From positions 1 through 64,000 of IMG/VR virus record IMGVR_UViG_3300037189_026208: 64,000 nucleotides of DNA; one strand, written 5' to 3'. Positions 7,371 through 61,066 of the stretch are shown one piece after another. Position numbers and translations under genes: made by a program. The notes beneath the pieces were generated by a model. It made no database searches. It saw only the letters and a list, made by a program, of their open reading frames with translations, and was not told the origin of the DNA. Each line of letters starts with the position of its first letter. Within the stretch, counting starts at the first letter, position 1. This stretch comes from a virus.

Positions 7371-7391
7371 AAAATTATATTGTTGTAATAA

Positions 7392-7399
7392 TATTTATG
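7392..7399 (-). promoter_or_regulatory. Late promoter box CATAAATA
   Basis: One-base variant of the T4 late box (CATAAATATTATT) on the minus strand, 21 nt before the sheath start. The same CATAAATA variant recurs upstream of the genes at 20258 and 43712. Confidence 0.55.
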
Positions 7400-7416
7400 C
7401 TAGACCTGGATATTTT

Positions 7417-8031: not shown

Positions 8032-8034
8032 TTA

Positions 8035-38113: not shown

Positions 38114-38155
38114 CTATAGTTGATAAAGAAATACGAGGTTATATAATAACCCGTA

Positions 38156-38437: not shown

Positions 38438-38438
38438 T

Positions 38439-39147: not shown

Positions 39148-39148
39148 T

Positions 39149-41973: not shown

Positions 41974-42213
41974 ATGAGCAAAAAATTTAATACATTAGTA
42001 GAAAGCTTTTTCCCTACAACACTTAAGTTGGTAACAAGGGTTCGCTACCCGAAACAAATACAATTTAGTCAGGAGTTTCATGAAGCTTTAAAGAAAGAGT
42101 ATCAGAGACTTCAAACAATTGAAGAAAAAGAAACCGAGCAGCAAATCGCTCCTATTAGAAATTACAGAGATAAATTTCTTAAAGCAGTAAATTTTTGTAT
42201 TAGAGCTCTTTAA
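41974..42213 (+). CDS. Small hypothetical basic protein
   Basis: A 79-residue basic helical protein. The leader MSKKFNTLVESFFP contains LVE-S, again the protease-site pattern. The remainder (FHEALKKEYQRLQTIEEKET) is a charged helix. It is the last gene of the 33-42 kb plus-strand run and overlaps the convergent primase gene by 4 nt. Function unknown. Confidence 0.55.
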   Translation: MSKKFNTLVESFFPTTLKLVTRVRYPKQIQFSQEFHEALKKEYQRLQTIEEKETEQQIAPIRNYRDKFLKAVNFCIRAL

Positions 42214-43238: not shown

Positions 43239-43712
43239 TTATCTACGGGGAGCAGGCTGATTACCAGCTCCAGAAGCTAGATCACGAGAGCGCTTTGAGG
43301 AATTAATAAGATAACCATTTAAAACCTCTATAAGACTACGAACTTGTTCTGCAATCTTGATAATATCTGTGGATGTGTCTCTAGAGATACCAGCAAAAAG
43401 GCTACCAGCAACATCAATATCATTTACAAATTTCTGTAATGAATCACCTTTAGGGTTGTTTAAAGCATCAGCAAATTGTTCGAGCTTCTCAATCTGGGAG
43501 GAAAGATTACCAGCGTGCTCACCTGTACCGGTAGCAACAGGAGCAGGTTCTACACCATAGTTATCAGGAACAGGTTCATTTGTTGTTGAATCGTCTCCCT
43601 CTGAAGGTACCTGACCGTCGGTAGGAGGAGGTACATCTGTAGGAGCTGGAGCAGGAGGAGCAACTGTTTCATCTGCTTCAATTAATAGTGTATAAAGCTT
43701 CTTAAAGTCCAT
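43239..43712 (-). CDS. Pro-rich protein with capsid-targeting-like leader
   Basis: A 157-residue protein. The leader MDFKKLYTLLIEADE holds LIE-A, a textbook match to the T4 gp21 cleavage pattern. A disordered Pro/Thr/Glu-rich segment follows to about residue 65, then a helical C-terminal domain (SSQIEKLEQFADALNNPKG, IAEQVRSLIEVLNGYLI) with a basic end. A CATAAATA late box is 12 nt upstream. It is a candidate internal head protein by analogy. Confidence 0.65.
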   Translation of the reverse strand: MDFKKLYTLLIEADETVAPPAPAPTDVPPPTDGQVPSEGDDSTTNEPVPDNYGVEPAPVATGTGEHAGNLSSQIEKLEQFADALNNPKGDSLQKFVNDIDVAGSLFAGISRDTSTDIIKIAEQVRSLIEVLNGYLINSSKRSRDLASGAGNQPAPRR

Positions 43713-45476: not shown

Positions 45477-45662
45477 ATGCCCATCATTAAAGGAAATAAA
45501 GCAAAAAGTAAAAAATCAATTGCTAAAAATATTAAAACCGAGCTAAAAGCAGGTAAGCCTAAAAAACAAGCAGTAGCCATTGCTTTAAGTTTAGCGGGTA
45601 AAAAGAAGAAAACTGTCAAGGAATCTTTTGACAGTGTAGTTGCTTCTATACTTGGTGAATAA
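45477..45662 (+). CDS. Small basic protein (DUF6496-like)
   Basis: A 61-residue basic protein. The core SKKSIAKNIKTELKAGKPKK with AVAIALSLAG matches a small phage and bacterial family (DUF6496-type) of unknown function. The last residues, VKESFDSVVASILGE, resemble the amphipathic leaders at the N-termini of other genes in this phage, but here at the C-terminus. A strong bidirectional hairpin terminator begins 5 nt after the stop. Confidence 0.7.
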   Translation: MPIIKGNKAKSKKSIAKNIKTELKAGKPKKQAVAIALSLAGKKKKTVKESFDSVVASILGE

Positions 45663-48337: not shown

Positions 48338-49420
48338 TTAGGCTCCTACGGGAGTAAGAAACGGGTTAGGCGCCATTGAAGCAAGATCCGGTCCAGAGAA
48401 GAACAGATCGGATGCAAGACGGTTGATCTCCATACGTGTAGCAATCTCCTCATCCGTAAGCTTATGAGTAGCCGTATGGGTGAGCTGATTGAACAGATCG
48501 TAACTGTTAATGTTTGAGTTAGCAGATGCCAACCAGCGATTGTTTTGCTTCTTAACATCCACCCCGATTGAAGCATAACGAGTCTTGATAACTTCGTCGT
48601 TAAAGACTTCTGCAGCGAGTTCCTTATCGTAGTTTGCAACAACAGCCTTAGCAGCATAAAACTCCCTCAAAGAGGCGTTATTGCTACGAAGACGGTTACA
48701 ACCCTGTTGAATCTCTTCCTTGTACCCTTCACCGCCTAGGTAACGTCCAATCTGACGATCGAAAGTCTTCTGTGTGAGTTCAGTGCTTGAAACAAAACGC
48801 TGAGCCATACGATGAACAGCTTGCATGCCGTTCGAGCAAACAAGTCGCAGAAAGTAAGGATAGGATTGAAGTTTATTGAGTGACATACTCAAGCCAAATC
48901 CGCCTTTCCAGAGATCTTGACCGTCACCGAAGACGTCGATATCAGCGTTAGGGTTCTTAAAGTCAATATTAATTGAAATATTAACAGGGTCAAAGTTCAT
49001 ACTACGAAGTTCTAGATCTACGTTTGTACCTCGAAGATACTCCTCAGTAAAGCGAAGACCGTTAGTAAGATCTACCGGTTTCTCTTCGGTAGACTCATGA
49101 TTTAGGATGCGAGTAATATATTGATCTTTATGATTTACTACTGCAGTTACAACTTTATTCTCTTTAATATTTGAGAGAGCGTCATGCAAAGGAGCCCACT
49201 GAGAGGCATCATCTTTAATTTCATTAACCAAATCGTCCTTAATTCCAAGGACACCAAGAAGGTTACTTAGAGAAGTCTCTCCGAGCCTGTTTCCATTAGC
49301 GGAAAAAGAGTTTCCACTCTTTTCGATGTCTTTGACGGCGAGAGGCACCAACGAATAACCGTTCAATGTCTCTTGAATGCTGCTACGATGAGCTACGTAT
49401 TTTTCTAGTGTTGTTGTCAT
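48338..49420 (-). CDS. DUF932-like phage protein
   Basis: A 360-residue protein resembling the DUF932 family of phages and plasmids, with PYFLRLVCSNGMQAVHRM in the middle (the CSNGM signature). The N-terminal half carries ISINIDFKNPNADIDVFG. Codons are G+C-richer than neighbours, so it is probably abundant. It is flanked downstream by a strong terminator, so it is expressed as its own unit. Molecular role unknown. Confidence 0.75.
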   Translation of the reverse strand: MTTTLEKYVAHRSSIQETLNGYSLVPLAVKDIEKSGNSFSANGNRLGETSLSNLLGVLGIKDDLVNEIKDDASQWAPLHDALSNIKENKVVTAVVNHKDQYITRILNHESTEEKPVDLTNGLRFTEEYLRGTNVDLELRSMNFDPVNISINIDFKNPNADIDVFGDGQDLWKGGFGLSMSLNKLQSYPYFLRLVCSNGMQAVHRMAQRFVSSTELTQKTFDRQIGRYLGGEGYKEEIQQGCNRLRSNNASLREFYAAKAVVANYDKELAAEVFNDEVIKTRYASIGVDVKKQNNRWLASANSNINSYDLFNQLTHTATHKLTDEEIATRMEINRLASDLFFSGPDLASMAPNPFLTPVGA

Positions 49421-49465
49421 ACCCCTACATTATACGGGATATAATTTTGAACTCCAGCAATTTTT

Positions 49466-49747
49466 TTAATCTTCCGGAAATTCTTTTTGCTTCCTAAAAA
49501 CTTCTACAGTTTTAAGTAATTCTGCTTTATCGTTTGTGTTGAGAAGTCGATGTAGCATATCACTCTCTTCAATTAGTGTTTTTATTTTACCGGCAAGTAA
49601 GTCAGGAGCTTGAACACCTGCAATATGTTGACAGGAACGTAAAGATGTATAAGCCTGTCTGTATTTTTCGTTTTCTTCAACGAGTTTTTGTATGTCACTA
49701 TTAAACTGTATCGTAACGCCCTGTTTAAGTCTAGTGTGCGGTGTCAT
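49466..49747 (-). CDS. Small coiled-coil protein
   Basis: A 93-residue helical protein with heptad-like charge (IQKLVEENEKYRQAYTSLRS) and one CQHIAG. It has a perfect TATAAATA box 9 nt upstream, so it is late. Unknown function; possibly a structural or chaperone protein. Confidence 0.6.
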   Translation of the reverse strand: MTPHTRLKQGVTIQFNSDIQKLVEENEKYRQAYTSLRSCQHIAGVQAPDLLAGKIKTLIEESDMLHRLLNTNDKAELLKTVEVFRKQKEFPED

Positions 49748-49755
49748 AGCTAAAA

Positions 49756-49763
49756 TATTTATA
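49756..49763 (-). promoter_or_regulatory. T4-type late promoter box TATAAATA
   Basis: Perfect TATAAATA on the minus strand, 9 nt before the start of the coiled-coil gene. It is paired back-to-back with a plus-strand box at 49786. Confidence 0.65.
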
Positions 49764-49785
49764 CTTGATAAGGTACTTTTACAAA

Positions 49786-49793
49786 AATAAATA
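49786..49793 (+). promoter_or_regulatory. Late promoter-like box AATAAATA
   Basis: AATAAATA 8 nt before the ATG of the histone-like gene on the plus strand. Weaker than the TATAAATA boxes. Confidence 0.4.
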
Positions 49794-49801
49794 AACCGAT
49801 T

Positions 49802-49990
49802 ATGCCAAATACATCAAACACAATAATTGAACTTGTAAATACTTTTGCTGCTGAAGCAGGTAAATTTTACGAGGGTAACAATGCCGCCGGCGCAAGAGCC
49901 CGGAAAGCTCTTCAGGAAATAATCAAGTACGGTCGTGACGAACGCAAGAGAATTCAGGAAGAGAAAAACGCACGTAAAGCTGCAAAGTAA
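49802..49990 (+). CDS. Histone H1-like small basic protein
   Basis: A 62-residue basic helical protein. The NNAAGARARKALQEI block matches the conserved core of the small histone H1-like proteins common in Bacteroidota and found in some T4-like phages. Basic ends (RDERKRIQEEKNARKAAK) suit DNA binding. It may organise phage or host DNA. It is followed by thyX after 2 nt and so shares its transcript. Confidence 0.75.
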   Translation: MPNTSNTIIELVNTFAAEAGKFYEGNNAAGARARKALQEIIKYGRDERKRIQEEKNARKAAK

Positions 49991-49992
49991 AA

Positions 49993-50631
49993 GTGTCAGT
50001 TAAACTCGTATCGGTTACAAAACCGGTTATTGAGGGAATCACGAGCGCAGAGGATTTAATTTCTTACTGCGCTCGTGTCAGTAACCCTACTAATCAGTTT
50101 AATACAGAAACAGCTCCTAAGCTTCTTGCTTATCTTATAAAGCATAAGCATTGGTCACCATTTGAAATGGTATCTATGACCGTGGAGATTAAAACTTCTA
50201 GAGCTATTGCTGCTCAAATTCTTCGTCATCGTAGTTTTTCTTTTCAAGAGTTTTCTCAAAGATACTCTACAGCGACAGAACTCGAAGATATTGAATGGAG
50301 ACTACAAGGTAAGACTAACCGTCAAGTAGGAGATGAAAAAGTCGATCTTAGTATAGGTGCATTAACAAAATTACATTTTTTACAAACAAAGTCTAAAGAA
50401 TTGTATGATGAACTAATTAATTCAGGTATTGCAAAAGAATGCGCTAGAATGGTATTACCACTCAATACATCAACTACTTTATATATGAGCGGTACAATTC
50501 GTTCATGGATACATTATCTACAAATACGTAGCGACGAAACAACTCAAAAAGAGCATAGAGTTATTGCTATTAAAATTAGAGAGCTGTTTAACCAACAATT
50601 CCCAGTTGTTTCAGAAGCATTAAATTGGTAA
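49993..50631 (+). CDS. thyX: Flavin-dependent thymidylate synthase ThyX
   Basis: A 212-residue FAD-dependent thymidylate synthase making dTMP from dUMP. The ThyX signature RHRSFSFQEFSQRY is at residues 78-91. The N-terminal ISYCARVSNPTNQFNT and HWSPFEMVSMTVEI, and the late MVLPLNTSTTLYMSGTIRSW, complete the family pattern. The start is GTG 2 nt after the histone-like gene. The tRNA cluster on the opposite strand begins directly after its stop. Confidence 0.95.
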   Translation: MSVKLVSVTKPVIEGITSAEDLISYCARVSNPTNQFNTETAPKLLAYLIKHKHWSPFEMVSMTVEIKTSRAIAAQILRHRSFSFQEFSQRYSTATELEDIEWRLQGKTNRQVGDEKVDLSIGALTKLHFLQTKSKELYDELINSGIAKECARMVLPLNTSTTLYMSGTIRSWIHYLQIRSDETTQKEHRVIAIKIRELFNQQFPVVSEALNW

Positions 50632-50632
50632 G

Positions 50633-50704
50633 TGGAATCGATGGGACTCGAACCCATAACCAATAGATTAAAAGTCTACTGCTCTACCATTGAGCTACGA
50701 TTCC
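50633..50704 (-). tRNA. tRNA-Lys(UUU)
   Basis: A cloverleaf on the minus strand, 72 nt, with acceptor stem GGAATCG/CGATTCC, anticodon loop CTTTTAA (anticodon UUU) and T-loop GGTTCGAGTCC. The 3' CCA is not encoded. It reads the AT-rich codon AAA. Confidence 0.93.
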
Positions 50705-50708
50705 AAAA

Positions 50709-50783
50709 TGGTGCACGATGAGGGGATCGAACCCCCGACCTTGTCCGTGTAAAGGACCTGCTCTACCGCTAAGCTAATCGTGC
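50709..50783 (-). tRNA. tRNA-Val(UAC)
   Basis: A 72-nt cloverleaf plus encoded CCA. Acceptor GCACGAT pairs with ATCGTGC, and the anticodon loop is TTTACAC (UAC). Confidence 0.93.
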
Positions 50784-50789
50784 TAAAAG

Positions 50790-50869
50790 TGCTCATGGAG
50801 GGACTTGAACCCCCACCCTTACGGACTAGATCCTAAGTCTAGCGCGGCTGCCAATTACGCCACATGAGC
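50790..50869 (-). tRNA. tRNA-Leu(UAG)
   Basis: An 80-nt cloverleaf with acceptor GCTCATG/CATGAGC, anticodon loop CTTAGGA (UAG) and an 11-nt variable region, the short class II form expected for Leu. CCA not encoded. Confidence 0.9.
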
Positions 50870-50876
50870 TTTAAAA

Positions 50877-50952
50877 TGGTACATCGGGCAGGGATCGAAC
50901 CTGCGACCAAGGGTTTAGAAAACCCCTGCTCTATCCACTGAGCTACCGATGC
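50877..50952 (-). tRNA. tRNA-Arg(UCU)
   Basis: Cloverleaf with encoded CCA. The acceptor begins GCATCGG with a G-U first pair, and the anticodon loop TTTCTAA gives UCU, reading AGA. Confidence 0.92.
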
Positions 50953-50956
50953 ATAT

Positions 50957-51127
50957 TTAAGGAAGTTCCTCCTTTGGAGGGTCAATAATATCTTTAATCT
51001 CTGCCTGAATACGTTTGATTTCTTCGTTAAAAGCTTTTGCAGACTGCTTCTTACGATTTTTCATATCGTCAAGATCCTGTACTAGTTGAAATACTCTTGC
51101 TTCTTTTGTTGTGTTTGTTTCTTCCAT
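50957..51127 (-). CDS. Tiny coiled-coil protein inside the tRNA cluster
   Basis: A 56-residue protein read by eye between two tRNAs. It is highly charged and helical (FQLVQDLDDMKNRKKQSAKA, then FNEEIKRIQAEIKDII) with a PPKEELP end. It fills the whole inter-tRNA gap from just after the Met tRNA to 4 nt before the Arg tRNA. No known function. Base use and helical periodicity support coding. Confidence 0.6.
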   Translation of the reverse strand: MEETNTTKEARVFQLVQDLDDMKNRKKQSAKAFNEEIKRIQAEIKDIIDPPKEELP

Positions 51128-51137
51128 AATTTTAAAG

Positions 51138-51213
51138 TGGTGCGCCCGGAGGGATTTGAACCCCCAACCAATCAGTTATGAGCCGACTGCTCTGACCATT
51201 GAGCTACAAGCGC
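51138..51213 (-). tRNA. tRNA-Met(CAU)
   Basis: Cloverleaf with encoded CCA, acceptor GCGCTTG and anticodon loop CTCATAA (CAU). The paired G1-C72 argues against an initiator tRNA. Elongator Met, or Ile if the first anticodon base is modified to lysidine, are both possible. Confidence 0.88.
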
Positions 51214-51223
51214 GTTGTTAAAA

Positions 51224-51299
51224 TGGTACTCCAGGTCGGATTCGAACCGACACTTGAGGGATTTTAAGTCCCTTGTCTCTGCCGTTGGACTACTGGAGC
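51224..51299 (-). tRNA. tRNA with anticodon UAA (Leu codon) but short variable loop
   Basis: Cloverleaf with encoded CCA, acceptor GCTCCAG, anticodon loop CTTAAAA (UAA, reading UUA) and T-arm GTCGGTTCGAATCCGAC. The variable loop is only CAAGT (5 nt), a class I shape, whereas bacterial tRNA-Leu normally has a long variable arm. Confidence 0.82.
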
Positions 51300-51313
51300 G
51301 CATAAAAGACATA

Positions 51314-51436
51314 TTAATTACAAAGCCAAAGGCATTCAAGAAGAAAAATAATAAAACTCAAAATAACTACAATAGTAATAGTCTTTTCGTGATTCCAAAA
51401 ATTTTGAAACGCAATATAGAGCTGATTATTTTTCAT
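51314..51436 (-). CDS. Tiny single-span membrane protein inside the tRNA cluster
   Basis: A 40-residue protein read by eye between two tRNA genes. A hydrophilic start (MKNNQLYIAFQNFWNHEKT) leads into one membrane span (ITIVVILSFIIFLLECLWLC). It exactly occupies the gap. Unknown function. Confidence 0.5.
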   Translation of the reverse strand: MKNNQLYIAFQNFWNHEKTITIVVILSFIIFLLECLWLCN

Positions 51437-51444
51437 ATCAAAAA

Positions 51445-51539
51445 TGGTACTGGGTGTGGGAATCGAACCCACGCTCGGCCCTCATCTAGGGCGCCACGAT
51501 TATAAGTCGTGCGGTGCTCTCCAATTACACTAACCCAGT
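51445..51539 (-). tRNA. Class II-shaped tRNA with anticodon UAU
   Basis: A 95-nt cloverleaf with encoded CCA. Acceptor ACTGGGT/ACCCAGT, anticodon stem CACGA/TCGTG with loop CTTATAA (UAU, reading Ile AUA), a 22-nt variable region with its own GCCC/GGGC stem, and T-arm GTGGGTTCGATTCCCAC. A long variable arm is usual for Leu, Ser and Tyr, not Ile. Confidence 0.8.
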
Positions 51540-53003: not shown

Positions 53004-53399
53004 TTATATACCTTTTGCAGCAGCGTGGTAACGAGCTCTCTTAGCAACGTCACAAATAGCACTAGAAGCTACAGCAATCTTTTGTAACATCCAGGGCTCA
53101 ATACTCTCACCAGAAGAGAGAATATCATGAAGCTCTTTAGCGTTTGTAAAGAGATCAAAAAGGTTTGTCTTGGCCATTTCTAATTCCTCGCTTTCATGCT
53201 CTTCCGGAGACTCTTCACATTCACAACCTTCTTCTTCAGGTTCTTCACCTAAATCCATAACAATTACACCAGCATCCTTGCCTTCATCATCCGTTACTTC
53301 AACAGGTGTTGTATCATGCTCAATATCTGTAGGTTCATTATGATCTTTTTGTCTTGAGGAAATATAAGCCTCAGCAATTAAGCGAAATTCCTTGTCCAT
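53004..53399 (-). CDS. Acidic protein with capsid-targeting-like leader
   Basis: A 131-residue protein. The leader MDKEFRLIAEAYISSRQ contains IAE-A, a direct match to the T4 prohead protease pattern. The middle is very acidic (EEPEEEGCECEESPEEHESE). The C-terminal 50 residues form a helical domain (IEPWMLQKIAVASSAICDV) that I associate with small virion-related proteins of T4-like phages. It is one of five consecutive genes with such leaders. Confidence 0.7.
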   Translation of the reverse strand: MDKEFRLIAEAYISSRQKDHNEPTDIEHDTTPVEVTDDEGKDAGVIVMDLGEEPEEEGCECEESPEEHESEELEMAKTNLFDLFTNAKELHDILSSGESIEPWMLQKIAVASSAICDVAKRARYHAAAKGI

Positions 53400-53400
53400 A

Positions 53401-53766
53401 TTAAGCTACGCTTCCGTCCTCTGGACAATTTCCTGTCTCGTGATCTCCGCCACAAGTCGTACAGACCTTAGCGGTTACTTTATCATCTTCGCCGGCTGTA
53501 CCAGCAACTTCTTCTTTTTCTTTCTTTGTAAGAAGAGCGTCAAGATCAGCGATGGTCTTACCGTGGTCGTTAACAATCTTAACAATATCTTCTTTTTCGT
53601 CCTTAAGCTTTAGATAGTCCTTAGAACCGTGCTCAGCTTTAAGTAAGGAACGAACTACTTTGTAGTAACGTCTTGCAAGCTTTTTGTTAACAACTTTATC
53701 AGTAGCTGTACCTTCGAGGATGCGCTGATAAGCTTCCGCTAATAATACTTCATCTTTATTGATCAT
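53401..53766 (-). CDS. Protein with capsid-targeting-like leader and Cys pair
   Basis: A 121-residue protein. The leader MINKDEVLLAEAYQRILEG holds LAE-A. The body is Lys/Glu-rich and helical, and the end carries VCTTCGGDHETGNCPE, a possible metal site with three Cys and one His. It is a candidate internal head protein by leader analogy. Confidence 0.7.
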   Translation of the reverse strand: MINKDEVLLAEAYQRILEGTATDKVVNKKLARRYYKVVRSLLKAEHGSKDYLKLKDEKEDIVKIVNDHGKTIADLDALLTKKEKEEVAGTAGEDDKVTAKVCTTCGGDHETGNCPEDGSVA

Positions 53767-53775
53767 ATATTATAT

Positions 53776-53997
53776 TTAATCTTTCCTATGGGACTTCTTC
53801 CACCATTTGCACCAGGCACTAGGCTTAATGTCCCCGCTAACAGCAGAACATTTATTTGGTGATCTCCACATTGTACATTGATCACATCGCTGTCCCTTAA
53901 CAGTGTGAGCTACATAACCCGCTTCTGCTTTAGAGTGTTTTGCTTTAGCTTCACTTAACATCTCTAAAGCTAATTTTATAACTTTATCGAAGCTCAT
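53776..53997 (-). CDS. HiPIP-like iron-sulfur protein with capsid-targeting-like leader
   Basis: A 73-residue protein. The leader MSFDKVIKLALEMLSEAKAK has LSE-A (14-17). The remainder is QRCDQCTMWRSPNKCS followed by DIKPSAWCKWW, with cysteines at 38, 41, 50 and 63 (C-x2-C-x8-C-x12-C). This spacing with an aromatic before the last Cys is that of high-potential iron-sulfur proteins. Cleavage after Glu 16 would leave a 57-residue domain. Redox function is inferred, not shown. Confidence 0.72.
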   Translation of the reverse strand: MSFDKVIKLALEMLSEAKAKHSKAEAGYVAHTVKGQRCDQCTMWRSPNKCSAVSGDIKPSAWCKWWKKSHRKD

Positions 53998-54428
53998 CCG
54001 CCTTGCTGTGCTGCCTTCATATATGAATGAAGTTGTTCGATATCCTTAGGTATAGCTTTTTTAATAACTTCAGGAATTGGTTTACTTAATAACAATAATG
54101 ATTGTGCGTAATCTTTAGCTGTATCTCTATCTTTTGAAATAGCTATAATTTCGTGTGTAGTAAGTTGAGCACCATTTATATATTTACGATACGCTCTTTC
54201 AGCGTCATAACGTGTATTATCTTCTTTTGGTGTGTGAGGTTTGGCAACTTCTTCTGTTTCACCTGGACCTCTAGGGTTAGGCTCTTCAGGGTTTCCAGCA
54301 GGTCTAGCTTTAGCAGGATGTGCTAAACCTAATGAAGCAGCCATGGCTGCAGTTGCCATAGCTTTTGAAAAAGGTCCTTCTTGAACCAATTCATATGCTT
54401 CTGTTATTTTTTGTATATCTTTACTCAT
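53994..54428 (-). CDS. Protein with capsid-targeting-like leader and Pro-rich linker
   Basis: A 144-residue protein. The leader MSKDIQKITEAYELVQEGPF has ITE-A. An Ala-rich segment (MATAAMAASLGLAHPAKARP) could be a short hydrophobic helix, then a Pro/Glu linker, then a helical C-terminal region. It overlaps the HiPIP-like gene by 4 nt. Role unknown. Confidence 0.65.
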   Translation of the reverse strand: MSKDIQKITEAYELVQEGPFSKAMATAAMAASLGLAHPAKARPAGNPEEPNPRGPGETEEVAKPHTPKEDNTRYDAERAYRKYINGAQLTTHEIIAISKDRDTAKDYAQSLLLLSKPIPEVIKKAIPKDIEQLHSYMKAAQQGG

Positions 54429-54429
54429 A

Positions 54430-54684
54430 TTAATCTTTATTTACTACGCTGTCAAAACCTGCACTCCAGAGATCAGCAGCTTTTTTATTACCGCCTTTAT
54501 GAGGATTTTCAGGCATAACACCATCTCTGAGATATCTTCTTCCAGCTAAAGCGCCATGGGCAAAATGATCAGATGCATCTGAGGCTGCGTGATAATCAGT
54601 AGGAGTTCTTGACATAAGTTTTTCGTATTCTTGTCTACTAATAGTATCGTATGCTTCGTTTAAAGCGGTTTCGAATTTCGACAT
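54430..54684 (-). CDS. Small protein with capsid-targeting-like leader
   Basis: An 84-residue protein. The leader MSKFETALNEAYDTISRQ has LNE-A. The rest (SDHFAHGALAGRRYLRDG, then ADLWSAGFDSVVNKD) is a small helical domain of unknown function. It is the first-transcribed of five consecutive leader-bearing genes (54684 down to 53004). Upstream lies a strong terminator for the preceding gene. Confidence 0.65.
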   Translation of the reverse strand: MSKFETALNEAYDTISRQEYEKLMSRTPTDYHAASDASDHFAHGALAGRRYLRDGVMPENPHKGGNKKAADLWSAGFDSVVNKD

Positions 54685-54706
54685 ATAATATATTTAAGGT
54701 TTAATA

Positions 54707-54757
54707 TAAAAAAAGAGACGGTAGATCAAGAGGCGACCAAGCCCTCAACCTACCGTC
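54707..54757 (-). terminator. Rho-independent terminator
   Basis: On the minus strand, stem GACGGTAG/CTACCGTC encloses an inner GAGG/CCTC stem and is followed by TCTTTTTTTA. It ends the transcript of the array that finishes at 54804 and separates it from the genes starting at 54684. Confidence 0.85.
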
Positions 54758-54803
54758 ATTTTGCTCTTGTTTAACGTCGTAGCGCTAGCCAACTCAGACG
54801 GGT

Positions 54804-55025
54804 CTAAGTACGCTCTATGTTTTTGTAACGTACCCCTCTGCGTTTCCTTAGTAAAGGCTCCGGACTTGAGACCGGCTTAGTAGCATTAATACGATGTTTT
54901 AATCTACACATGAATCTATATACAGTATCCGGATCAGGCAAGCAAAGAAATAAAAATATTATTAATGGAAACCCCATAAAAACCGCTATACCTTCCAGAT
55001 ACTGTAAAATAGCACTCACTAGCAA
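54804..55025 (-). CDS. Small membrane protein at the end of the array
   Basis: A 73-residue protein with one membrane span (FMGFPLIIFLFLCLP) and a basic cytoplasmic tail (LRKRRGVRYKNIERT). It follows the last array gene by 9 nt and is followed by a strong terminator, so it probably ends the array transcript. Function unknown. Confidence 0.55.
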   Translation of the reverse strand: MLVSAILQYLEGIAVFMGFPLIIFLFLCLPDPDTVYRFMCRLKHRINATKPVSSPEPLLRKRRGVRYKNIERT

Positions 55026-55034
55026 ATAACGATT

Positions 55035-56000
55035 TTACGTTATAGCATCAATTAATCCACCGAAATTTTCTTCGGTCTCCGGATCAATTATACCTTTTAG
55101 TAAATCAGATTCTATTGGATAAAGATCATTATACTCGACTACATATTTTTCACTTTTATCTTTAGCAAAATCAGGCTCAACAAGAGCTTGTCGTACGCGA
55201 TGTCTTGCCCAAGGACTCATTTCCACAGCTGGTTTAATGTATGTAGCAAGTTCACCTTTCCATAAATTATCTCTATCACTTCTTAAACAAACTCTATCTC
55301 CCTCTTTAAGGTTGTTTCTCCATGTTTCTAAATCAAAATCCTTACTCTCTGTAACACTTAGTAAATCACTAAATGAATCTTTAGTATCTTTTGTTAATGA
55401 CTTTCTTAATTCCCAATCAATAGGAAATAATTTACTTAGATTGTATCTAGTATAGCCTTGAGAGCCATCTATATTGTGACCTTCTTTAACAAGTAAAGCA
55501 ATATCTCTAAAACTATCAACTACTTCTAAATATGTAGCTTTAAATCCACGGACAGTAAAAGGTCTAACTTCTACCTTATCGCCTTTCTTTAAGTTACTTC
55601 GCCAAGTTCTAAGATATTCGTAATCCTCTTGAGTCTCTTCTGATACTATATCGATTAAATCGCTAAATGAATTTTCTGTATCCTTAGATAGAGAGTTCTT
55701 TAATTCATATTTTTTTAAAGCTTTTTGTACTTTATCGGTTACAACCTTTCTAACTGTATAGTAACTATCAGGTACATGTAAGCTTCTATACCATTCATCA
55801 AAATCTTTCATATGAACAAACCAACCATTACCTGATTTAGCATCTCTAGTCCATATAGCAGGTTTTCCGTCTATAATAATATCCCAACAAGGATTCCACA
55901 TCTGACCTCCCATTAAGGTTTCAAAAGGACCCTTAACAATCTCTACTTTAAGATCATTAGCTCTTCTTAATTCCTCTAATATAAGATCATTAAATCTCAC
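55035..56000 (-). CDS. Triple-module array protein (fused cassette)
   Basis: A 321-residue protein with a GTG start. The leader MRFNDLILEELRRAND is of the array type (ILE-E). Module 1 ends near residue 115 with LSKDTENSFSDLIDIV, module 2 ends with LTKDTKDSFSDLLSV, and module 3 ends the protein with DPETEENFGGLIDAIT. Modules 2 and 3 share a paralogous start, RTWRSNLKKGDKVEVR and ETWRNNLKEGDRVCLR. It looks like a head-to-tail fusion of units that elsewhere are separate genes. Function unknown. The GTG overlaps an upstream in-frame stop by 4 nt. Confidence 0.75.
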   Translation of the reverse strand: MRFNDLILEELRRANDLKVEIVKGPFETLMGGQMWNPCWDIIIDGKPAIWTRDAKSGNGWFVHMKDFDEWYRSLHVPDSYYTVRKVVTDKVQKALKKYELKNSLSKDTENSFSDLIDIVSEETQEDYEYLRTWRSNLKKGDKVEVRPFTVRGFKATYLEVVDSFRDIALLVKEGHNIDGSQGYTRYNLSKLFPIDWELRKSLTKDTKDSFSDLLSVTESKDFDLETWRNNLKEGDRVCLRSDRDNLWKGELATYIKPAVEMSPWARHRVRQALVEPDFAKDKSEKYVVEYNDLYPIESDLLKGIIDPETEENFGGLIDAIT

Positions 56001-56150
56001 GGTTTATTATTTATCAATATCTGCTCTAGCGCGGCGAGGTTTCTCCTAATTTCCCCGCTTAGTGCATCCGTCTCGGCCCCAAAGTTTTTGAAAATATTTT
56101 ATACTCTAAATTGAATTCCGATTATTAATTCTAGGGAAATTAAAGAATAT
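55997..56150 (-). pseudogene. Possible decayed array cassette
   Basis: After the stop of the 56140 gene the expected start codon is ATA, not ATG (GATATTCTTTAA). The frame reads FFNFPRINNRNSI and then stops. A second frame open from about 56090 to the TGA at 55997 reads NFGAETDALSGEIRRNLAAL with no normal start. Together these look like a broken member of the array. Confidence 0.3.
56008..56015 (-). promoter_or_regulatory. Possible late box GATAAATA upstream of the fused cassette gene
   Basis: GATAAATA on the minus strand, 7 nt upstream of the GTG at 56000. A variant of the late box; it may restart transcription after the decayed cassette. Weak. Confidence 0.3.
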
Positions 56151-56424
56151 CTAATAGATCTCCGAACGTCTCGCCTGTCTCCTTGGACAGATGCCGCTTT
56201 ATATTATGATCTTCTATAGCTTTGGCAATAGCGTTCTTTACTCCTTGCTTCTTATAGAGTTCAAGTCCCCAAACAGTGAGGTATTGGTTAGTCTCCAAAT
56301 ATCTAAAACCATCTGGCTCCTCGCCTATTGTTAACTTCTGGCCATCTACCTCCACGTCATAGCCTATATAGCCTTCGTCCTTAAGGTCGTAAGGACCTCT
56401 TAAGAATTTTACTTTATAAGACAT
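56140..56424 (-). CDS. Array protein 10 (type B variable domain)
   Basis: A 94-residue member of the tandem family. It lacks the cleavable-type leader and begins directly with MSYKVKFLRGPYDLKDEGYI. The variable domain is the type seen in several members (VKFLRGP ... VEVDGQKLTI). The conserved end is AIEDHNIKRHLSKETGETFG followed by DLLDIL. The start lies in the 11-nt overlap with the preceding gene. Its own 3' junction carries ATA where other members provide the next ATG. Function unknown. Confidence 0.65.
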   Translation of the reverse strand: MSYKVKFLRGPYDLKDEGYIGYDVEVDGQKLTIGEEPDGFRYLETNQYLTVWGLELYKKQGVKNAIAKAIEDHNIKRHLSKETGETFGDLLDIL

Positions 56425-56767
56425 CTAAGAACCCTCCGAATGAATCTCTTGTTTCTGGAGACATAGCTTGAAGTGTCTCCCAATTCTTAATAGCTTTAGC
56501 TACCGGACCGTTTTCAGTATCTTTTCCATCCCAAAGGTAAATCTCTGGCATATAAAGAACATAAGGGTATTCACCACGTTCTGGAGTATAAATGACAAAA
56601 CTATTTCGATCTTCCGTATCCTCTTTAATATGCATTAACCAGGCACCTTCTATATCTTCGGGAAGTGTATAGCCTCGCTTTAGATACTCATTGATCTCTT
56701 CATCGGTAGCCCTTCTTAGGACTTTATAGAAGTTACCAGACTCTAGAAAGAACTTGTTAAAGGACAT
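56414..56767 (-). CDS. Array protein 9 (type A variable domain)
   Basis: A 117-residue array member. The leader MSFNKFFLESGN has FLE-S. The type A variable domain starts FYKVLRRATDEEINEYLKRG and continues DIEGAWLMHIKEDTED, close to members at 59480 and 57527. The conserved end is KNWETLQAMSPETRDSFGGF. An 11-nt overlap joins both neighbours. A capsid-packaged role is inferred from the leader. Confidence 0.7.
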   Translation of the reverse strand: MSFNKFFLESGNFYKVLRRATDEEINEYLKRGYTLPEDIEGAWLMHIKEDTEDRNSFVIYTPERGEYPYVLYMPEIYLWDGKDTENGPVAKAIKNWETLQAMSPETRDSFGGFLDVL

Positions 56768-57131
56768 CTAATAAACCTCCAAATGAATCTTTAGTTTCTT
56801 TGTCTACACTATTTAAAAGATTATAATCTTCTATAGCCTTGTCTATTTGTTCTCTAAACGGATCATCATAGACGTCGGTATGATTGGGGATAATCTTAGG
56901 ATAGGGAGGTAGCCAATGCCCTCTATAATGACCTGGTGGCCAGCAGTAATAGCATATGCACTCCTTGTCCTTATACTTCATTTGTAGCTTATAGACATTC
57001 TCTTCCCAATCTTTTATATCCAGCTCATTACGAAAGAGATGGGTCATTGGTCCCTCAAGTATCTTTACTTCAATTCCTCTATTATCACCGTAATTGATAA
57101 GAGCTTCTTTTATTAATCGATCAAAGTACAT
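56757..57131 (-). CDS. Array protein 8 (type B variable domain)
   Basis: A 124-residue array member. The leader MYFDRLIKEALINYGD has IKE-A. The variable domain begins GIEVKILEGPMTHLF and contains the Cys/Tyr pair CICYYCW and many aromatics. The conserved end is IEDYNLLNSVDKETKDSFGG. Overlaps of 11 nt on both sides. Confidence 0.7.
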   Translation of the reverse strand: MYFDRLIKEALINYGDNRGIEVKILEGPMTHLFRNELDIKDWEENVYKLQMKYKDKECICYYCWPPGHYRGHWLPPYPKIIPNHTDVYDDPFREQIDKAIEDYNLLNSVDKETKDSFGGLLDVL

Positions 57132-57537
57132 CTAATAATCCTCCAAATGAATCTCTTGTATCTTTACTTAATCCTTGCTTAAAATTCCATTGATCTATAA
57201 GAGCTGGAACTGTTTCACGTAACATCTTATTAAGGAATTGAGCTCTCGGGGCTGACTTGTGTTGTCTACCGACCATACGTTTAAACCAAGTAGGTGTTTG
57301 AATAACAGTATAATAAGCTGTTGTCTTCTGAAGCTCTCTATCTTTATCCTCTATCTTCTTAACCCACCAAGTACCTCCTTTACTATCCTTTAAACAAAAG
57401 ACCTCTTTATAGTCTTTATGTGGAGGTTGTTCAAGATGAAGCTCACCAGTAAGACTATCCATAAAGCCGGTACCTACAACCTTAAATGTTGTATTCATCC
57501 AGTCCAGTTCTTCTAATACTAATTGATTAAAGTACAT
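57121..57537 (-). CDS. Array protein 7 (type B variable domain)
   Basis: A 138-residue array member. The leader MYFNQLVLEELDWMN has VLE-E. The variable domain begins TTFKVVGTGFMDSLTGE and holds a basic stretch (WFKRMVGRQHKSAPRAQFL). The conserved end is IDQWNFKQGLSKDTRDSFGG. Its stop is TGA within the 11-nt overlap. Confidence 0.7.
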   Translation of the reverse strand: MYFNQLVLEELDWMNTTFKVVGTGFMDSLTGELHLEQPPHKDYKEVFCLKDSKGGTWWVKKIEDKDRELQKTTAYYTVIQTPTWFKRMVGRQHKSAPRAQFLNKMLRETVPALIDQWNFKQGLSKDTRDSFGGLLDVL

Positions 57538-57889
57538 CTAATAATCCTCCGAATGTTTTCTTTGTATCATTACTTAATAGCTTTCTAAACTCCCAATCAT
57601 TAATAGCATCAGGAACTAACCCGGAGAACCCCATAAAGGTTACATCTCCGCTATCATGAATGTTGTAGCTAGTATATCCTTCCTTCTCGTTATCTTTAAA
57701 CCGTACAACAAGACGCGGCCAATACCCAGGTCTATTACCATCATCGTCTACCACCCAGGCACCTTTTATATACTCTTCCCTTACCCAGCGATAGCCATAA
57801 CCGTATATCCTCTGAAGATCTTCTTCTGTAGCGTCCCGAACGACGTGATACTTCTCTAAAGCTTCTAATACTATTTGATTAAAGTACAT
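57527..57889 (-). CDS. Array protein 6 (type A variable domain)
   Basis: A 120-residue array member. The leader MYFNQIVLEALEKYH has VLE-A. The variable domain starts YHVVRDATEEDLQRIYGYGY and continues with KGAWVVDDDGNRPG, aligning by eye with members at 56414 and 59480. The conserved end is INDWEFRKLLSNDTKKTFGG. It has 11-nt overlaps on both sides. Confidence 0.7.
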   Translation of the reverse strand: MYFNQIVLEALEKYHVVRDATEEDLQRIYGYGYRWVREEYIKGAWVVDDDGNRPGYWPRLVVRFKDNEKEGYTSYNIHDSGDVTFMGFSGLVPDAINDWEFRKLLSNDTKKTFGGLLDVL

Positions 57890-58220
57890 CTAATAATCCT
57901 CCGAAAGTTTCTCTTGTATCCTTTGATAAGGATTGTTTTAATTCCCAATCTTTCATAGCTTTAATAATAAGGCTATCAAGTGTATCAATATCAATACCGA
58001 ATAGCTTTTTACATTGATCTCGTTCATATACAGCATTATCCGGATCAATTCCTGAAGTATTTAAACCATCGAGATAAAGCATACATTGATCATCTTTGAC
58101 ATAACGAAAGAAACACTTCTTACCATTTACAGTTATATTATAATGAAGGTCTCCGATAGCCCAATCTGGAAGATCTTTGTCTTCTATAACATTAATAATC
58201 TTAATAGAAGGTTGTTTCAT
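57879..58220 (-). CDS. Array protein 5 (no leader, type B)
   Basis: A 113-residue array member that lacks the leader and starts MKQPSIKIINVIEDKDLPDW. It begins 8 nt after the previous stop, without the usual overlap or a GGAGG site. The variable domain has ITVNGKKCFFRYVKDDQ. The conserved end is MKDWELKQSLSKDTRETFGG. Its 3' junction to the next gene is intact. Confidence 0.65.
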   Translation of the reverse strand: MKQPSIKIINVIEDKDLPDWAIGDLHYNITVNGKKCFFRYVKDDQCMLYLDGLNTSGIDPDNAVYERDQCKKLFGIDIDTLDSLIIKAMKDWELKQSLSKDTRETFGGLLDVL

Positions 58221-58228
58221 ATAGGCTA

Positions 58229-58765
58229 TTAGAGGGCGTCTAGGAAGTCCTTAAATGATCCTTGAGTCTTAGTATCGGTTTGTCCTAGAGCTAAGAAGTT
58301 CTTTTCTTTATGTTTTATCCACCAGTTTACTAGCTTATCTAGCTTCTCGGCAAATGCGTAATGATAACCTTTCTGCCTCCATACTGGATCCTCTGTATTA
58401 TTATCATAATGAACGAAGTAACTTATATATGGATATAAAACATTCGGTACCCAAGAGGCAGCTGCAGCAATATGGGTAGGTCCTGTTTCATCTTCAAGTC
58501 TTCTAGTATCATCAATACAAGTCATATAATATGTCTTTGTATCTGTCCATGTAGCAAGCTCCCTAGTCTTATGTAATATACCATTAGGTTCAGCCTCCTT
58601 CGGTAGTCCTTCTTTAATGTCATATATCTCAAAGTTATGAAAGGGCATTGAATCAACCTCATCCGTTGACCAGACCGATCGTTCAAAGCCTTGCTTTCTA
58701 TCGGGGTTTCTTGATCGAGGTACATTAGCTACTAGAGCCTCTTTGAAGTAATCTTTAAATGACAT
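58229..58765 (-). CDS. Array protein 4 (long, divergent end)
   Basis: A 178-residue array member, the longest single-module one. The leader MSFKDYFKEALVANV has FKE-A. The body has aromatic-rich segments (HIAAAASWVPNVLYPYISYF, WRQKGYHYAFAEKLDKL). The end is diverged: TDTKTQGSFKDFLDAL. The junction to the next gene has lost both the GGAGG site and the overlapping ATG. Confidence 0.65.
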   Translation of the reverse strand: MSFKDYFKEALVANVPRSRNPDRKQGFERSVWSTDEVDSMPFHNFEIYDIKEGLPKEAEPNGILHKTRELATWTDTKTYYMTCIDDTRRLEDETGPTHIAAAASWVPNVLYPYISYFVHYDNNTEDPVWRQKGYHYAFAEKLDKLVNWWIKHKEKNFLALGQTDTKTQGSFKDFLDAL

Positions 58766-59102
58766 CGATTAAACCTCCAAATGATTGTTCAGTATCCTTT
58801 GATAGATTGTTTTTTAATTCCCAAGATATAAGCTGTTTGTATATAGGAAAGTCCGGATAGATATACCCTTCAAAGCCATAATTAGGTAAGCTATACACCA
58901 TTAAGTTTTCATTGTTAAGATCTTCAAATAAGTCCTTACAACGTATGACTAGAACATCAGATACATCGGTATAGTTTCTAATTACCCATCCTCTAGTTAA
59001 TTTTAAATCCTCATCATATTGAGAAGATAAACCATCGAGTATTTTCTGAGGAGCTAATTCTATCTTCTCCTTCTTTGATTCGTAGAATAACTTAAATGAC
59101 AT
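58755..59102 (-). CDS. Array protein 3
   Basis: A 115-residue array member. The leader MSFKLFYESKKEKIEL has FYE-S and its first ten residues are identical to those of the next-upstream member. The variable domain contains LTRGWVIRNYTDVSDVLVIR. The conserved end is ISWELKNNLSKDTEQSFGGL. Overlaps of 11 nt on both sides. Nearly identical leaders with different bodies suggest cassette shuffling. Confidence 0.7.
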   Translation of the reverse strand: MSFKLFYESKKEKIELAPQKILDGLSSQYDEDLKLTRGWVIRNYTDVSDVLVIRCKDLFEDLNNENLMVYSLPNYGFEGYIYPDFPIYKQLISWELKNNLSKDTEQSFGGLIDVI

Positions 59103-59490
59103 CTAGTAGCCCTCCGAAAGTATCTCTTGTCTTATCTGGTAGATGCCTCCTTTGTTCAAAGTCATCTATAGCCTTAACTACTCTCCTACCTTCTTCTCTA
59201 TAGGCTGGTATATCCCGCTCGGTAAAGGCACCACATCTATCCATACCTTCTAAAGTATAAACATCATAACCTTTTACATACGTAATAGATCTTATAGCAA
59301 TATATCTAGCAATATATCTATCAGTTCCTGATTCCTTCTTTATAGTAAGAAGATAGAGAGGGTCATCTTTTCTCCAAGGATACTTCCTACGAAAGACCCC
59401 CTCATACCCCTCAGGCACTGCTTCTACAGTTATATTATCTCTTTGAAGCTTATAAGGCTCTTTAGATTCGTAGAATAACTTAAATGACAT
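59092..59490 (-). CDS. Array protein 2
   Basis: A 132-residue array member. The leader MSFKLFYESKEPYKL has FYE-S. The variable domain is basic (GVFRRKYPWRKDD) with RYIARYIAIRSITYVKGYDV. The conserved end is IDDFEQRRHLPDKTRDTFGG. Overlaps of 11 nt on both sides. Confidence 0.7.
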   Translation of the reverse strand: MSFKLFYESKEPYKLQRDNITVEAVPEGYEGVFRRKYPWRKDDPLYLLTIKKESGTDRYIARYIAIRSITYVKGYDVYTLEGMDRCGAFTERDIPAYREEGRRVVKAIDDFEQRRHLPDKTRDTFGGLLDVI

Positions 59491-59833
59491 CTAATAGACC
59501 TCCAAATGAATCTTTAGTATCGTCTGATAGATTATTTTTAAACTCCCATTTCTTAATAGCTTTAGCAAGAGGTGAGTTTATATCCTCATGACTAATAAGG
59601 TCAATAGTGTTAGGGTCTAATGTGTAAATTGAATATGTCTTCCAGTCAGGAATATATGCTACAATAACCTGTCCTTCATCATAGTCATCGTTCATATAAA
59701 CGATCCATGCCTGTTCAATATCTCCCTTCTCCGTATCAAGATCTCTTGTAAGATCTTTAAGTTCTTTCTTTGTAAATCTTCTAAGAACTTTGTATGAGTC
59801 GTTTGACTCTGTAAAAAATTGTTTAAATGACAT
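59480..59833 (-). CDS. Array protein 1 (first of the array)
   Basis: A 117-residue protein, first in the coupled series. The leader MSFKQFFTESNDSYKV has FTE-S. The type A variable domain starts YKVLRRFTKKELKDLTRDLD and DIEQAWIVYMNDDYDE. The conserved end is IKKWEFKNNLSDDTKDSFGG. Its start is preceded by AAGGAG 8 nt upstream in non-coding DNA, a real SD in a genome that mostly lacks them. Confidence 0.7.
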   Translation of the reverse strand: MSFKQFFTESNDSYKVLRRFTKKELKDLTRDLDTEKGDIEQAWIVYMNDDYDEGQVIVAYIPDWKTYSIYTLDPNTIDLISHEDINSPLAKAIKKWEFKNNLSDDTKDSFGGLLDVI

Positions 59834-59853
59834 CTATCTATCTCCTTGATAGA

Positions 59854-60048
59854 TTATTTAAGAGTCTTTATTTCATTCCCTATCTCTACTATATACTCAC
59901 CTATCTTAGACATGCCGAGCTCCTTGGTTAGGCTCTGCTTCTCCCTTAGTATTCTAACGATAGTCTCTAGCTTACCTAGATAGTCTTCTAATGTAAGCCC
60001 GGATAGATCTTCCTTTAGATAGCCTGATACAATTTCATTAAACTTCAT
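59854..60048 (-). CDS. Small leader-bearing protein upstream of the array
   Basis: A 64-residue protein. The leader MKFNEIVSGYLKEDLSGL has LKE-D. The remainder is a charged helix (YLGKLETIVRILREKQSLTK). It lacks the conserved array end and precedes the array by 20 nt. Unknown function. Confidence 0.6.
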   Translation of the reverse strand: MKFNEIVSGYLKEDLSGLTLEDYLGKLETIVRILREKQSLTKELGMSKIGEYIVEIGNEIKTLK

Positions 60049-60084
60049 AGTCTATTATTTAGTCTATGAACAGGTTTAATAGTA

Positions 60085-60636
60085 TTAGGATTCCCTCTTT
60101 ATAATAGTTAATCCGTTGTTGTTAGTGTAGGTACAAACCTCTTTCCATTCCTTATGATTAGAAAGGAAGAGCTTAATAGCTGGTACCAAACCAATCCTTC
60201 CCTCTACAGTTGATCCATCCTCATTAACCGTTCCGAAAGTAATAGTATCATGGAACAGTATATACTTCTTAACCTTACTATGATGTCTCTCAAGTTCTCC
60301 TAATACCTGATCGTATGTATGCAGAGTATCTATAAAGAGCATATCTACTTCCTCTAGATCATACTCCAAGGTACTAGCTTGATCAAAGCGCATATTAACA
60401 TTCTCTCTCTTACATTCTTCCTTAAAGATATCGATATTGTAATTCGTATTAATATCTACGCATATAAGCTTCTTAGGATTAGCCTTAGCTAGGGCATAAG
60501 AGCTAACTACATTACGTACACCAAACTCAGCTATTGTTTCACACTCCCTAGCGTATGTGTAAAGGGTCTCCAGATGTTCATTAATATCTGAAGGTGTATA
60601 TCTTCTTTCGTTGTACCTTGAATCTATAATACTCAT
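60085..60636 (-). CDS. Class I methyltransferase-like protein
   Basis: A 183-residue protein with a Rossmann-like SAM-binding core: TIAEFGVRNVVSSYALAKA, KKLICVDINTN and EVDMLFIDTLHTYDQVLGEL, plus KKYILFHDTITFG. It resembles the sugar- or antibiotic-modifying methyltransferases that occur with glycosyltransferases. It stands alone upstream of the array. Substrate unknown. Confidence 0.7.
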   Translation of the reverse strand: MSIIDSRYNERRYTPSDINEHLETLYTYARECETIAEFGVRNVVSSYALAKANPKKLICVDINTNYNIDIFKEECKRENVNMRFDQASTLEYDLEEVDMLFIDTLHTYDQVLGELERHHSKVKKYILFHDTITFGTVNEDGSTVEGRIGLVPAIKLFLSNHKEWKEVCTYTNNNGLTIIKRES

Positions 60637-60692
60637 TTAATAGAATTTATACTAGTCTTTTATATAGTGCTAGTATCTATTAAATGTTTATA

Positions 60693-60881
60693 TTACTTTT
60701 CTTTATCTTGCTTTACAGTTACTACTAAGTTAACCGGCTGGCTATTCTCTTTATCAAATACTATACCACCATGGGTATGATTAAGTCCTGCTACAATTGC
60801 TCCTGTTATATCAAAGAATGTATAAGCTATACAGAAGTAAATTAGGAAGTTCTTTAGCGTTAATTCTCTTAGAAAGTTCAT
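60693..60881 (-). CDS. Small single-span membrane protein
   Basis: A 62-residue protein with one N-terminal membrane segment (FLIYFCIAYTFFDITGAIVA) and a charged C-terminus (VVTVKQDKEK). Unknown function. No SD or late box. Confidence 0.5.
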   Translation of the reverse strand: MNFLRELTLKNFLIYFCIAYTFFDITGAIVAGLNHTHGGIVFDKENSQPVNLVVTVKQDKEK

Positions 60882-60934
60882 ATAGAACTATTTAAGGTAT
60901 TTGAAAGGATTTTATTCCGGATTTTGTTCCTTCC

Positions 60935-61066
60935 TCATCGATAGTCAGGCATGGAGCCTCTTCTACCGACCAGCTCGTGCTTAATCAATACATCAGGATC
61001 AAAGCTTACCATAGGTCTTTGGCTCCCCTGAACTAGATAGAGTCTATAAGCATCACCAACGAGCAA
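60935..61066 (-). CDS. Possible 43-residue protein with TTG start
   Basis: Read by eye: TTG at 61066 preceded by GGGAGGT at good spacing, giving MLVGDAYRLYLVQGSQRPMV and ending GSMPDYR. The stretch 61067-61268 upstream of it has no ORF I can support. It contains a short inverted repeat (AGAGCTACC / GGTTGCTCT on the minus strand) that may be an RNA structure. Both the gene and the structure are tentative. Confidence 0.35.
   Translation of the reverse strand: MLVGDAYRLYLVQGSQRPMVSFDPDVLIKHELVGRRGSMPDYR

Follow-up and report, generated by a model that had tools for sequence, protein, structure and literature searches.

The window analysed here is a 64,000-nt stretch of viral DNA (positions 1 to 64,000 of IMG/VR record IMGVR_UViG_3300037189_026208, which is 74,422 b long), and towards its end lie eleven open reading frames (ORFs) on the minus strand, between positions 55035 and 59833, that encode proteins of 94–321 aa, each ending in a common C-terminal block, here called the tag; both the lengths and the shared block given in a preliminary description of the stretch are borne out. 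From the upstream end, and named by their lower coordinate, the genes are 59480 (59480–59833; 117 aa; leader MSFKQFFTES; a middle of the type called A), 59092 (59092–59490; 132 aa; leader MSFKLFYES), 58755 (58755–59102; 115 aa; leader MSFKLFYES), 58229 (58229–58765; 178 aa; leader MSFKDYFKEA), whose tag variant SFKDFLDAL has no GG and which the next gene does not overlap, 57879 (57879–58220; 113 aa; no leader), 57527 (57527–57889; 120 aa; leader MYFNQIVLEA; type A-like middle), 57121 (57121–57537; 138 aa; leader-like start MYFNQLVLEE), 56757 (56757–57131; 124 aa; leader MYFDRLIKEA), 56414 (56414–56767; 117 aa; leader MSFNKFFLES; type A middle), 56140 (56140–56424; 94 aa; no leader; tag TFGDLLDIL) and 55035 (55035–56000; 321 aa). 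The last begins at a GTG codon with the leader-like start MRFNDLILEE and joins three domain-plus-tag units in one chain: each of two internal tag copies on the minus strand, both without GG, closes one unit (55644–55751, SFSDLIDIV; 55350–55457, SFSDLLSVT), and a terminal copy (55041–55148, minus strand) ends the protein. Eight of the ten neighbouring pairs overlap by 11 nt; the remaining two are separated, 56140 from 55035 by 139 nt and 58229 from 57879 by 8 nt, and the earlier description of the genes as consecutive needs qualifying for those two gaps. The triple tag of 55035 had been missed, as had the fact that part of the C-terminal block doubles as ribosome-binding site and start codon for the gene that follows.

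The tag consensus is about KAIxxWExKxxLSxDTxxSFGGLLDVL, that is, the end of a helix (KAIxxWExK) followed by LSx(D/E)TxxSFxxLLDxL. A second record of the same virus, IMGVR_UViG_3300032285_004054 (218,400 b; hereafter the longer record, in which the window starts at position 139,176), is identical to the window record over the 13,176 b compared, and the TerL proteins of the two are identical. A profile search of the 598 ORFs of at least 50 aa in the longer record found 26 tags in 24 genes, eleven in the window and 13 outside it (domain expectation (E) values 3.5e-19 to 0.0013 in the first pass); the profile was built from 19 tags and iterated, and these seed members account for 19 of the 26 recovered. 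The search returned 27 rows, one of them a truncated duplicate of one gene, a separate six-frame search likewise gave 26 tags, and no other ORF among the 598 scored below E 0.1. The tag ends at the last or last-but-one residue in 24 of 24 genes, the two copies within the 321-aa protein being the sole internal ones, and in four members only the last 19–21 residues match.

Junctions, leaders and bodies

At eight of the ten neighbouring pairs, the next gene has its start codon and a Shine-Dalgarno (SD)-like sequence within the coding sequence of the gene before it. The Gly codons of FGG hold GGAGG and the D-V codons hold the next ATG at all eight overlapping junctions, which are found on the minus strand at 59488–59503, 59100–59115, 58763–58778, 57887–57902, 57535–57550, 57129–57144, 56765–56780 and 56422–56437 and in which 8 nt separate GGAGG from the ATG of, in turn, genes 2, 3, 4, 6, 7, 8, 9 and 10 of the array. 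Each such junction is a DNA module of about 105 nt that comprises the tag of one protein, GGAGG, the next start codon and the first residues of the next protein. When ten junctions with 11-nt overlaps (the eight of the window and two of a second array, described below) were aligned ungapped on the ATG, mean pairwise DNA identity was 0.73, 0.82 and 0.70 over −30 to +14, 0.45–0.50 from −75 to −31, 0.43 to +29 and 0.26–0.31 outside; where two tags have the same residue, its codons agree at 0.60 against 0.42 expected from codon usage. One stretch of bases, read in two frames, ties the start of a gene to the end of the one before it: MSF or MSY to DVI-stop or DVL-stop, and MYF to DVL-stop. All 10 matches to the junction DNA pattern in IMG/VR lie in this virus.

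The glycines of the tag follow the position of the next gene. Of the 13 tags that the next start overlaps (by 11, 4 or 1 nt), 12 have FGG, versus 1 of the 13 others (by eye; Fisher p 3e-5), and 12 have GGAGG, versus 0 of 13 (by eye; Fisher p 3e-6), both p-values being optimistic, since the members are related and kinship is uncorrected. The first Gly codon is GGA in those 12 tags, a codon that makes up 22% of Gly codons in a crude gene set, and both internal tags of 55035 read FSD instead of FGG. In the tags without an overlapping start, T and F are kept in 13 of 13 (by eye). These patterns suggest that GG and part of DV are translation signals; T, F and the hydrophobic residues are kept without them, and the remainder of the tag persists where no gene follows and is thus kept at the protein level. 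Even on a modest reading, the translation signal of one gene has here plainly shaped the end of the protein before it, with the internal copies as a built-in control.

The leader was defined by a strict pattern (M, F at positions 2–7, then hydrophobic-x-E-(A/S/G/T/N)) that fits 12 of the 24 tag proteins, against a mean of 0.66 and a maximum of 4 in 2000 shuffles; three more fit partially by eye, and nine have no leader-like start. The earlier statement that most genes of the array carry a short leader stands for seven of the eleven under the strict pattern and for two more (57121 and 55035) that fit by eye with E-E, but not for 57879 and 56140. Tag genes whose start lies clear of any upstream tag gene have leaders too, and so the leader is not a by-product of the junction, where the first residues M-S/Y-F are fixed. 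In the T4 record, ipII and ipIII start with MKTYQEFIAEA and ipI with MKTFKEF, near the MSFKEYIEEA of a 662-aa tag protein described below; ipI alone fits the strict pattern, and all three fit a looser one.

Leader-like starts are also seen in genes without the tag. The ORF just upstream of the array (59854–60048, minus strand; 64 aa) starts with MKFNEIVSGYLKED, and other small tag-less genes with leader-like N-termini are found in the window at 33157–33423, 41634–41972 and 41974–42213 on the plus strand and at 43239–43712, 53004–53399 and 54430–54684 on the minus strand; these six are candidates for head-internal proteins. A basic 61-aa protein (45477–45662, plus strand) has the leader-like motif at its C-terminus, FDSVVASILGE. 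In Vibrio phage VB_VaC_SRILMA (L100, 6079–8033), adjoining small genes with starts MKFKQFLAES, MKFKEYLNEL and MNFKEYIQLG, next to TerL and to a gene with likeness to leucine-rich-repeat (LRR) proteins, are likely an internal-protein-like set.

Between these ends the bodies vary, and the early impression of constant ends around changing middles proved correct: the ends are more alike than the middles even in DNA, with mosaic pairings. The leaders of 59092 and 58755 share 28 of 30 nt and those of 57527 and 57121 share 27 of 30, with no clear similarity of their middles (z 2.3 and 1.0), whereas the best-matching middles, those of 59480 and 56414 (z 12.4), lie eight genes apart and have leaders alike at only 22 of 30 nt. 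This mosaic of ends and bodies, as read from sequence, is the expected trace of exchange at junctions or of gene conversion of the ends, either of which one genome would fit. Two types of middle had been proposed. Type A is real in phmmer comparisons among 26 middles, whose E-values apply to that tiny set (59480 with 56414, E 8e-10; 56414 with 57527, E 2e-4), but type B is reduced to a weak pairing of 57121 with the first unit of 55035 (E 1e-3), the middles of 56140, 56757 and 57879 having nothing below E 0.05 in that set.

Structure prediction, suggested earlier for both types, covered one member of type A and one supposed member of type B. The AlphaFold2 model of 56414 (type A; predicted local distance difference test (pLDDT) 79.5, predicted template-modelling score (pTM) 0.71) has the order strand-helix-four strands-helix-tag helix, and that of 56140 (supposed type B; pLDDT 65.4, pTM 0.54) the order four strands-helix-helix-tag helix, both from alignments of 11–12 rows. 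Residues 113–117 of 56414 and 86–94 of 56140, as well as the leader (residues 1–10) of 56414, fall below pLDDT 50; in these models the low-confidence ends fit a flexible leader and an exposed C-terminal motif. A common small fold suits the models too, so that some of the bodies may not be swapped ones at all. When the type A model was compared with PDB and BFVD by Foldseek, nothing matched at E 0.001 or better, and VIA-align gave a best Z of 4.5, which is not a demonstration of a new fold.

The tag elsewhere in the phage and in sequence collections

Judged by gene content, the virus belongs to the T4 superfamily: tail sheath, tail tube, TerL, UvsX, a gp32-like single-stranded-DNA-binding protein, a DnaB-type helicase, a polymerase and a primase were found. 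TerL is only 31–36% identical to those of other phages (best 20 of 2526 records), which makes the lineage a deep one. Head genes of gp23-type capsid (PF07068, E 1.2e-90) and gp21-type prohead protease (PF03420, E 5.6e-30) are present, and the gene between them matches the scaffold family phrog_237 at E 0.0039 only, a weakly gp22-like gene.

Outside the window, six tag genes on both strands occupy 68.2–71.5 kb of the window record, and a second array of five lies at 7,368–9,572 of the longer record. The longer record also encodes, at 37,945–39,933, the 662-aa LRR-like tag protein, which starts with MSFKEYIEEA, has tblastn likeness to LRR-like phage proteins and has no Pfam match; matches to its LRR part lie in records of Lak, Vibrio and uncultured phages. 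At 49,178–50,146 (L082:9178–10146) lies a 322-aa tag protein with an NT5C domain (NT5C/HAD-like; Pfam E 9e-7). A leader-like stretch, FNSIVGSILVEN, stands mid-chain in this protein ahead of its tagged part, as though a leader-bearing gene had been fused on.

The tag was found in none of 62 other virus records recovered by TerL similarity (E 0.01; 26 in one search and 47 in another, 11 common, with the longer record as positive control in the search that gave 47), records that are mostly fragments, such that its absence from them is not proof. In IMG/VR, a tag peptide pattern matched 10 stretches, two of them confirmed, in this virus only, and the LRR-like protein and 55035 were likewise found in this virus only. 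A homologue search of 50,697 phage records took in four of the eleven tag proteins of the window; 55035, 56414 and 58229 had no match at an E limit of 1, and 57879 (E limit 10) had 197 records, those listed all at E 2 or worse. Weak rows were returned for phrog_9662 (E 0.0021), phrog_2840, a minor tail family (0.0076), phrog_25019 (0.012), PADLOC PDC-M27B (0.017) and HTH_IX (0.028). In the literature searched, where most subscription journals were outside coverage, no paper on such an array was found among the matches listed. Across the libraries and collections searched, no counterpart of the C-terminal tag was found.

Other genes of the window were noted as well. A cluster of seven tRNA genes lies a few kb from the array (50632–51539, minus strand). 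FolE-like, QueD-like and QueE-like genes of the 7-deazaguanine pathway are found at 17366–18295 (minus), 38439–38957 (plus) and 39149–39979 (plus); this pathway possibly serves DNA modification, which would suit a contest with restriction enzymes. A glycosyltransferase match is located at 23041–24294 (minus), and a run of glycosyltransferase-like ORFs was noted by eye at 26741–28966 (minus).

Proposed mechanism and rival explanations

The most likely explanation, to which we give a probability of roughly one half, is that the array consists of translationally coupled, recombining cassettes of cargo like the T4 internal proteins, joined to an undescribed C-terminal docking tag in a phage of the T4 superfamily; the strongest alternative is that a single small fold has simply diverged. 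GGAGG in the tag codons would be used as an SD sequence and couple the translation of neighbours, the N-terminal leader would work as a T4 internal-protein capsid-targeting sequence, and the gp21-type protease of the phage may remove it after hydrophobic-x-E. The tag, a helix end and a short C-terminal amphipathic helix, would anchor leader-bearing and leaderless proteins alike on a single phage partner, of which the prohead core is the likeliest site; bodies would be swapped or added through recombination at the alike junctions; and, delivered together with the DNA, they would work against host defences or in host takeover. Packaging, coupling, anti-defence activity and the tag partner are the steps that we infer. 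Co-packaging, already proposed in the preliminary description, is suggested by analogy, in that leaders like T4 capsid-targeting sequences, with a hydrophobic-x-E site, occur in a virus with gp21-type, gp23-type and gp22-like proteins. A bolder version is doubtful: the tag would be a new packaging or docking signal by which one phage receptor, probably in the prohead core, gathers two dozen unrelated cargoes, and the junction a recombination module that reshuffles the injected arsenal.

Several results weigh against cargo cassettes with a docking tag. Among the 24 tag proteins, the 20 searched in PHROGs (including all eleven of the window) have no match below E 0.001, the 15 searched in PADLOC have none below 0.01, and Pfam on eight gave NT5C alone above the cut-off. 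No further gene of the phage matches the tag profile (next best E 0.42), the sequence suggests no partner, and the comparison rests on a single viral lineage. The leader pattern was composed after the sequences had been read and also exceeds shuffles in the non-tag ORFs of a crude gene set (14 of 276; mean 4.0, maximum 10 of 500), and the leader cannot be the common principle, because it is missing from nine of the 24. Most of the 24 tag proteins are small, but net charge is negative in 21 of them and positive in three, in contrast to the basic character given for T4 internal proteins (PMC9026906, in excerpt). A possible match of the tag to the N-terminus of the scaffold protein gp22 was rejected as chance after a control. 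T4 gp22 was the best of 30 hand-picked T4 proteins against the tag profile (two stretches, independent E 0.014), a gp22 N-terminal profile placed five tag proteins among its 20 best rows in the proteome of the virus (E 0.12 to 3), and hhalign of the tag with that N-terminus gave P 0.0037 (local) and 0.034 (global). Among 2023 control segments from 87 gene families of the phage group (gp22 included), however, the N-terminal segment of gp22 ranked 135 and the best other gp22 segment 47, with tail genes in the top rows. The tag as a prohead-protease site was also rejected, the consensus having no L/I-x-E by eye.

The main rival, possible but on the unlikely side, is tandem duplication and fast divergence of one small fold, with the tag as its C-terminal helix pair, kept for packing or because the start signal of the next gene sits there, in cytoplasmic early accessory proteins that need neither cassette exchange nor packaging. 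The predicted models of 56414 and 56140, in both of which a helix and then the tag helix come after a region of four-stranded sheet, are consistent with it, as are the kinship of several middles, the unit fusion in 55035, which suits duplication, and the nine proteins without a leader. Against it, the tag also closes the 662-aa LRR-like and 322-aa NT5C-domain proteins, likeness of leader and tag does not track likeness of the middle, and the last tag residues are among the least confident in both models (with their alignments of 11–12 rows), unlike a packed core helix. An improbable variant on docking is that the cassettes encode parts of a multi-part complex, the tag being a subunit docking helix, such that leader-bearing members carry leaderless ones or all assemble on one phage or host protein outside the head; a tag without a leader in nine of 24, three units fused in one chain (55035) and the low-confidence tag ends of both predicted models would suit this, but no partner was found by sequence.

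That the shared ends are purely DNA signals (the ribosome-binding site and start of the next gene) with no protein role is very hard to sustain. The FGG and LLDV codons do coincide with GGAGG and ATG, yet half of the 26 tags have no overlapping start and all of these keep T and F, two tags are internal to one protein, and in 22 of 26 the match begins at or before position 5 of the 36 in the profile, about 20 codons or more ahead of the SD sequence; such a reading of the whole block is largely refuted and holds for the GG and D-V positions. Exchange mediated by promoter-terminator cassettes between genes, of the promoter-early stem-loop (PeSL) type, likewise deserves very little credence, despite reports that PeSLs mediate gene shuffling in T4-like phages (PMC4503421, in excerpt). 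A consensus scan of 53500–61000 gave 12 promoter-like sites versus 25.9 in shuffles, in a phage that may use other promoters, and 2 terminator-like sites versus 3.0; no such site on the minus strand falls within any overlap junction, and at eight of the ten junctions the genes leave no space between them. To all of these we prefer cargo cassettes with a shared docking tag.

Comparison with known systems

The array had been said to resemble no described system, which goes too far, as conserved leaders with diverse bodies are described for T4 internal proteins, and shuffled gene cassettes for T4. PeSLs are reportedly mobile regulatory cassettes of T4-type phages, in work said to be that of Arbiol (2010) and Comeau (2014). 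Like them, the array has short repeated DNA at gene borders that would permit exchange of accessory genes; unlike them, its repeat is itself coding (tag, SD sequence, start and leader) and no promoter-terminator pair was found. A possible second and unrelated set of small genes that share a coding end occurs in a distant TerL relative, IMGVR_UViG_3300043464_001630 (G025, L141–L152), which has 19 small proteins of 57–105 aa with the near-C-terminal block DxKxFFLAxIKYGF. Some neighbours there overlap, and the pair 18404–18595 and 18585–18815 does so by 11 nt, the next ATG lying inside the YGF-stop codons, as in the array; in contrast to the tag, the block is unrelated in sequence, is not always at the very end and may be simply a paralogous domain. 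Among nine related records, searched in part, G025 alone had a C-terminal family of three or more.

T4 Alt is processed at both termini (PMC9026906, in excerpt), and the array resembles it in that both ends of a packaged protein would matter for the head, with the difference that the tag consensus, by eye, has no L/I-x-E site. As for the T4 internal proteins, the same source, in its available passages, states that ten residues of IPIII are enough for packaging and, in its section on maturation, that gp21 cleaves after L/I-x-E. Excerpts of further papers describe internal proteins as diverse defence proteins of which the leader alone is conserved (PMC3012670), IPIII as acting against host defences (PMC9391042), and Ip1-3 as inhibitors of type IV restriction enzymes with only the leader in common (PMC12373910). 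With IPI, IPII and IPIII the array has small, diverse bodies in common and, in part of its members, a possibly equivalent short N-terminal leader with hydrophobic-x-E before A/S; its setting likewise includes gp21- and gp23-type head genes and a nearby tRNA cluster, ipI being next to that of T4. Some half of the family may work like a T4 internal protein; membership is not claimed for proteins that are mostly acidic, nine of them without a leader, and whose packaging is a proposal. Unlike IPI–III, the family has a second, C-terminal common block, 24 genes, and 11-nt overlaps with an embedded SD sequence and ATG. If the proposal is true, the border between genes has become, in this phage, a reusable element with four coding roles at once: protein tag, ribosome-binding site, start codon and packaging leader. 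Such an element would account for the way in which T4-like phages assemble and alter large sets of injected proteins and would provide both a sequence handle for new anti-defence proteins and, next to the leader known from T4, a second, C-terminal signal for loading cargo into the head.

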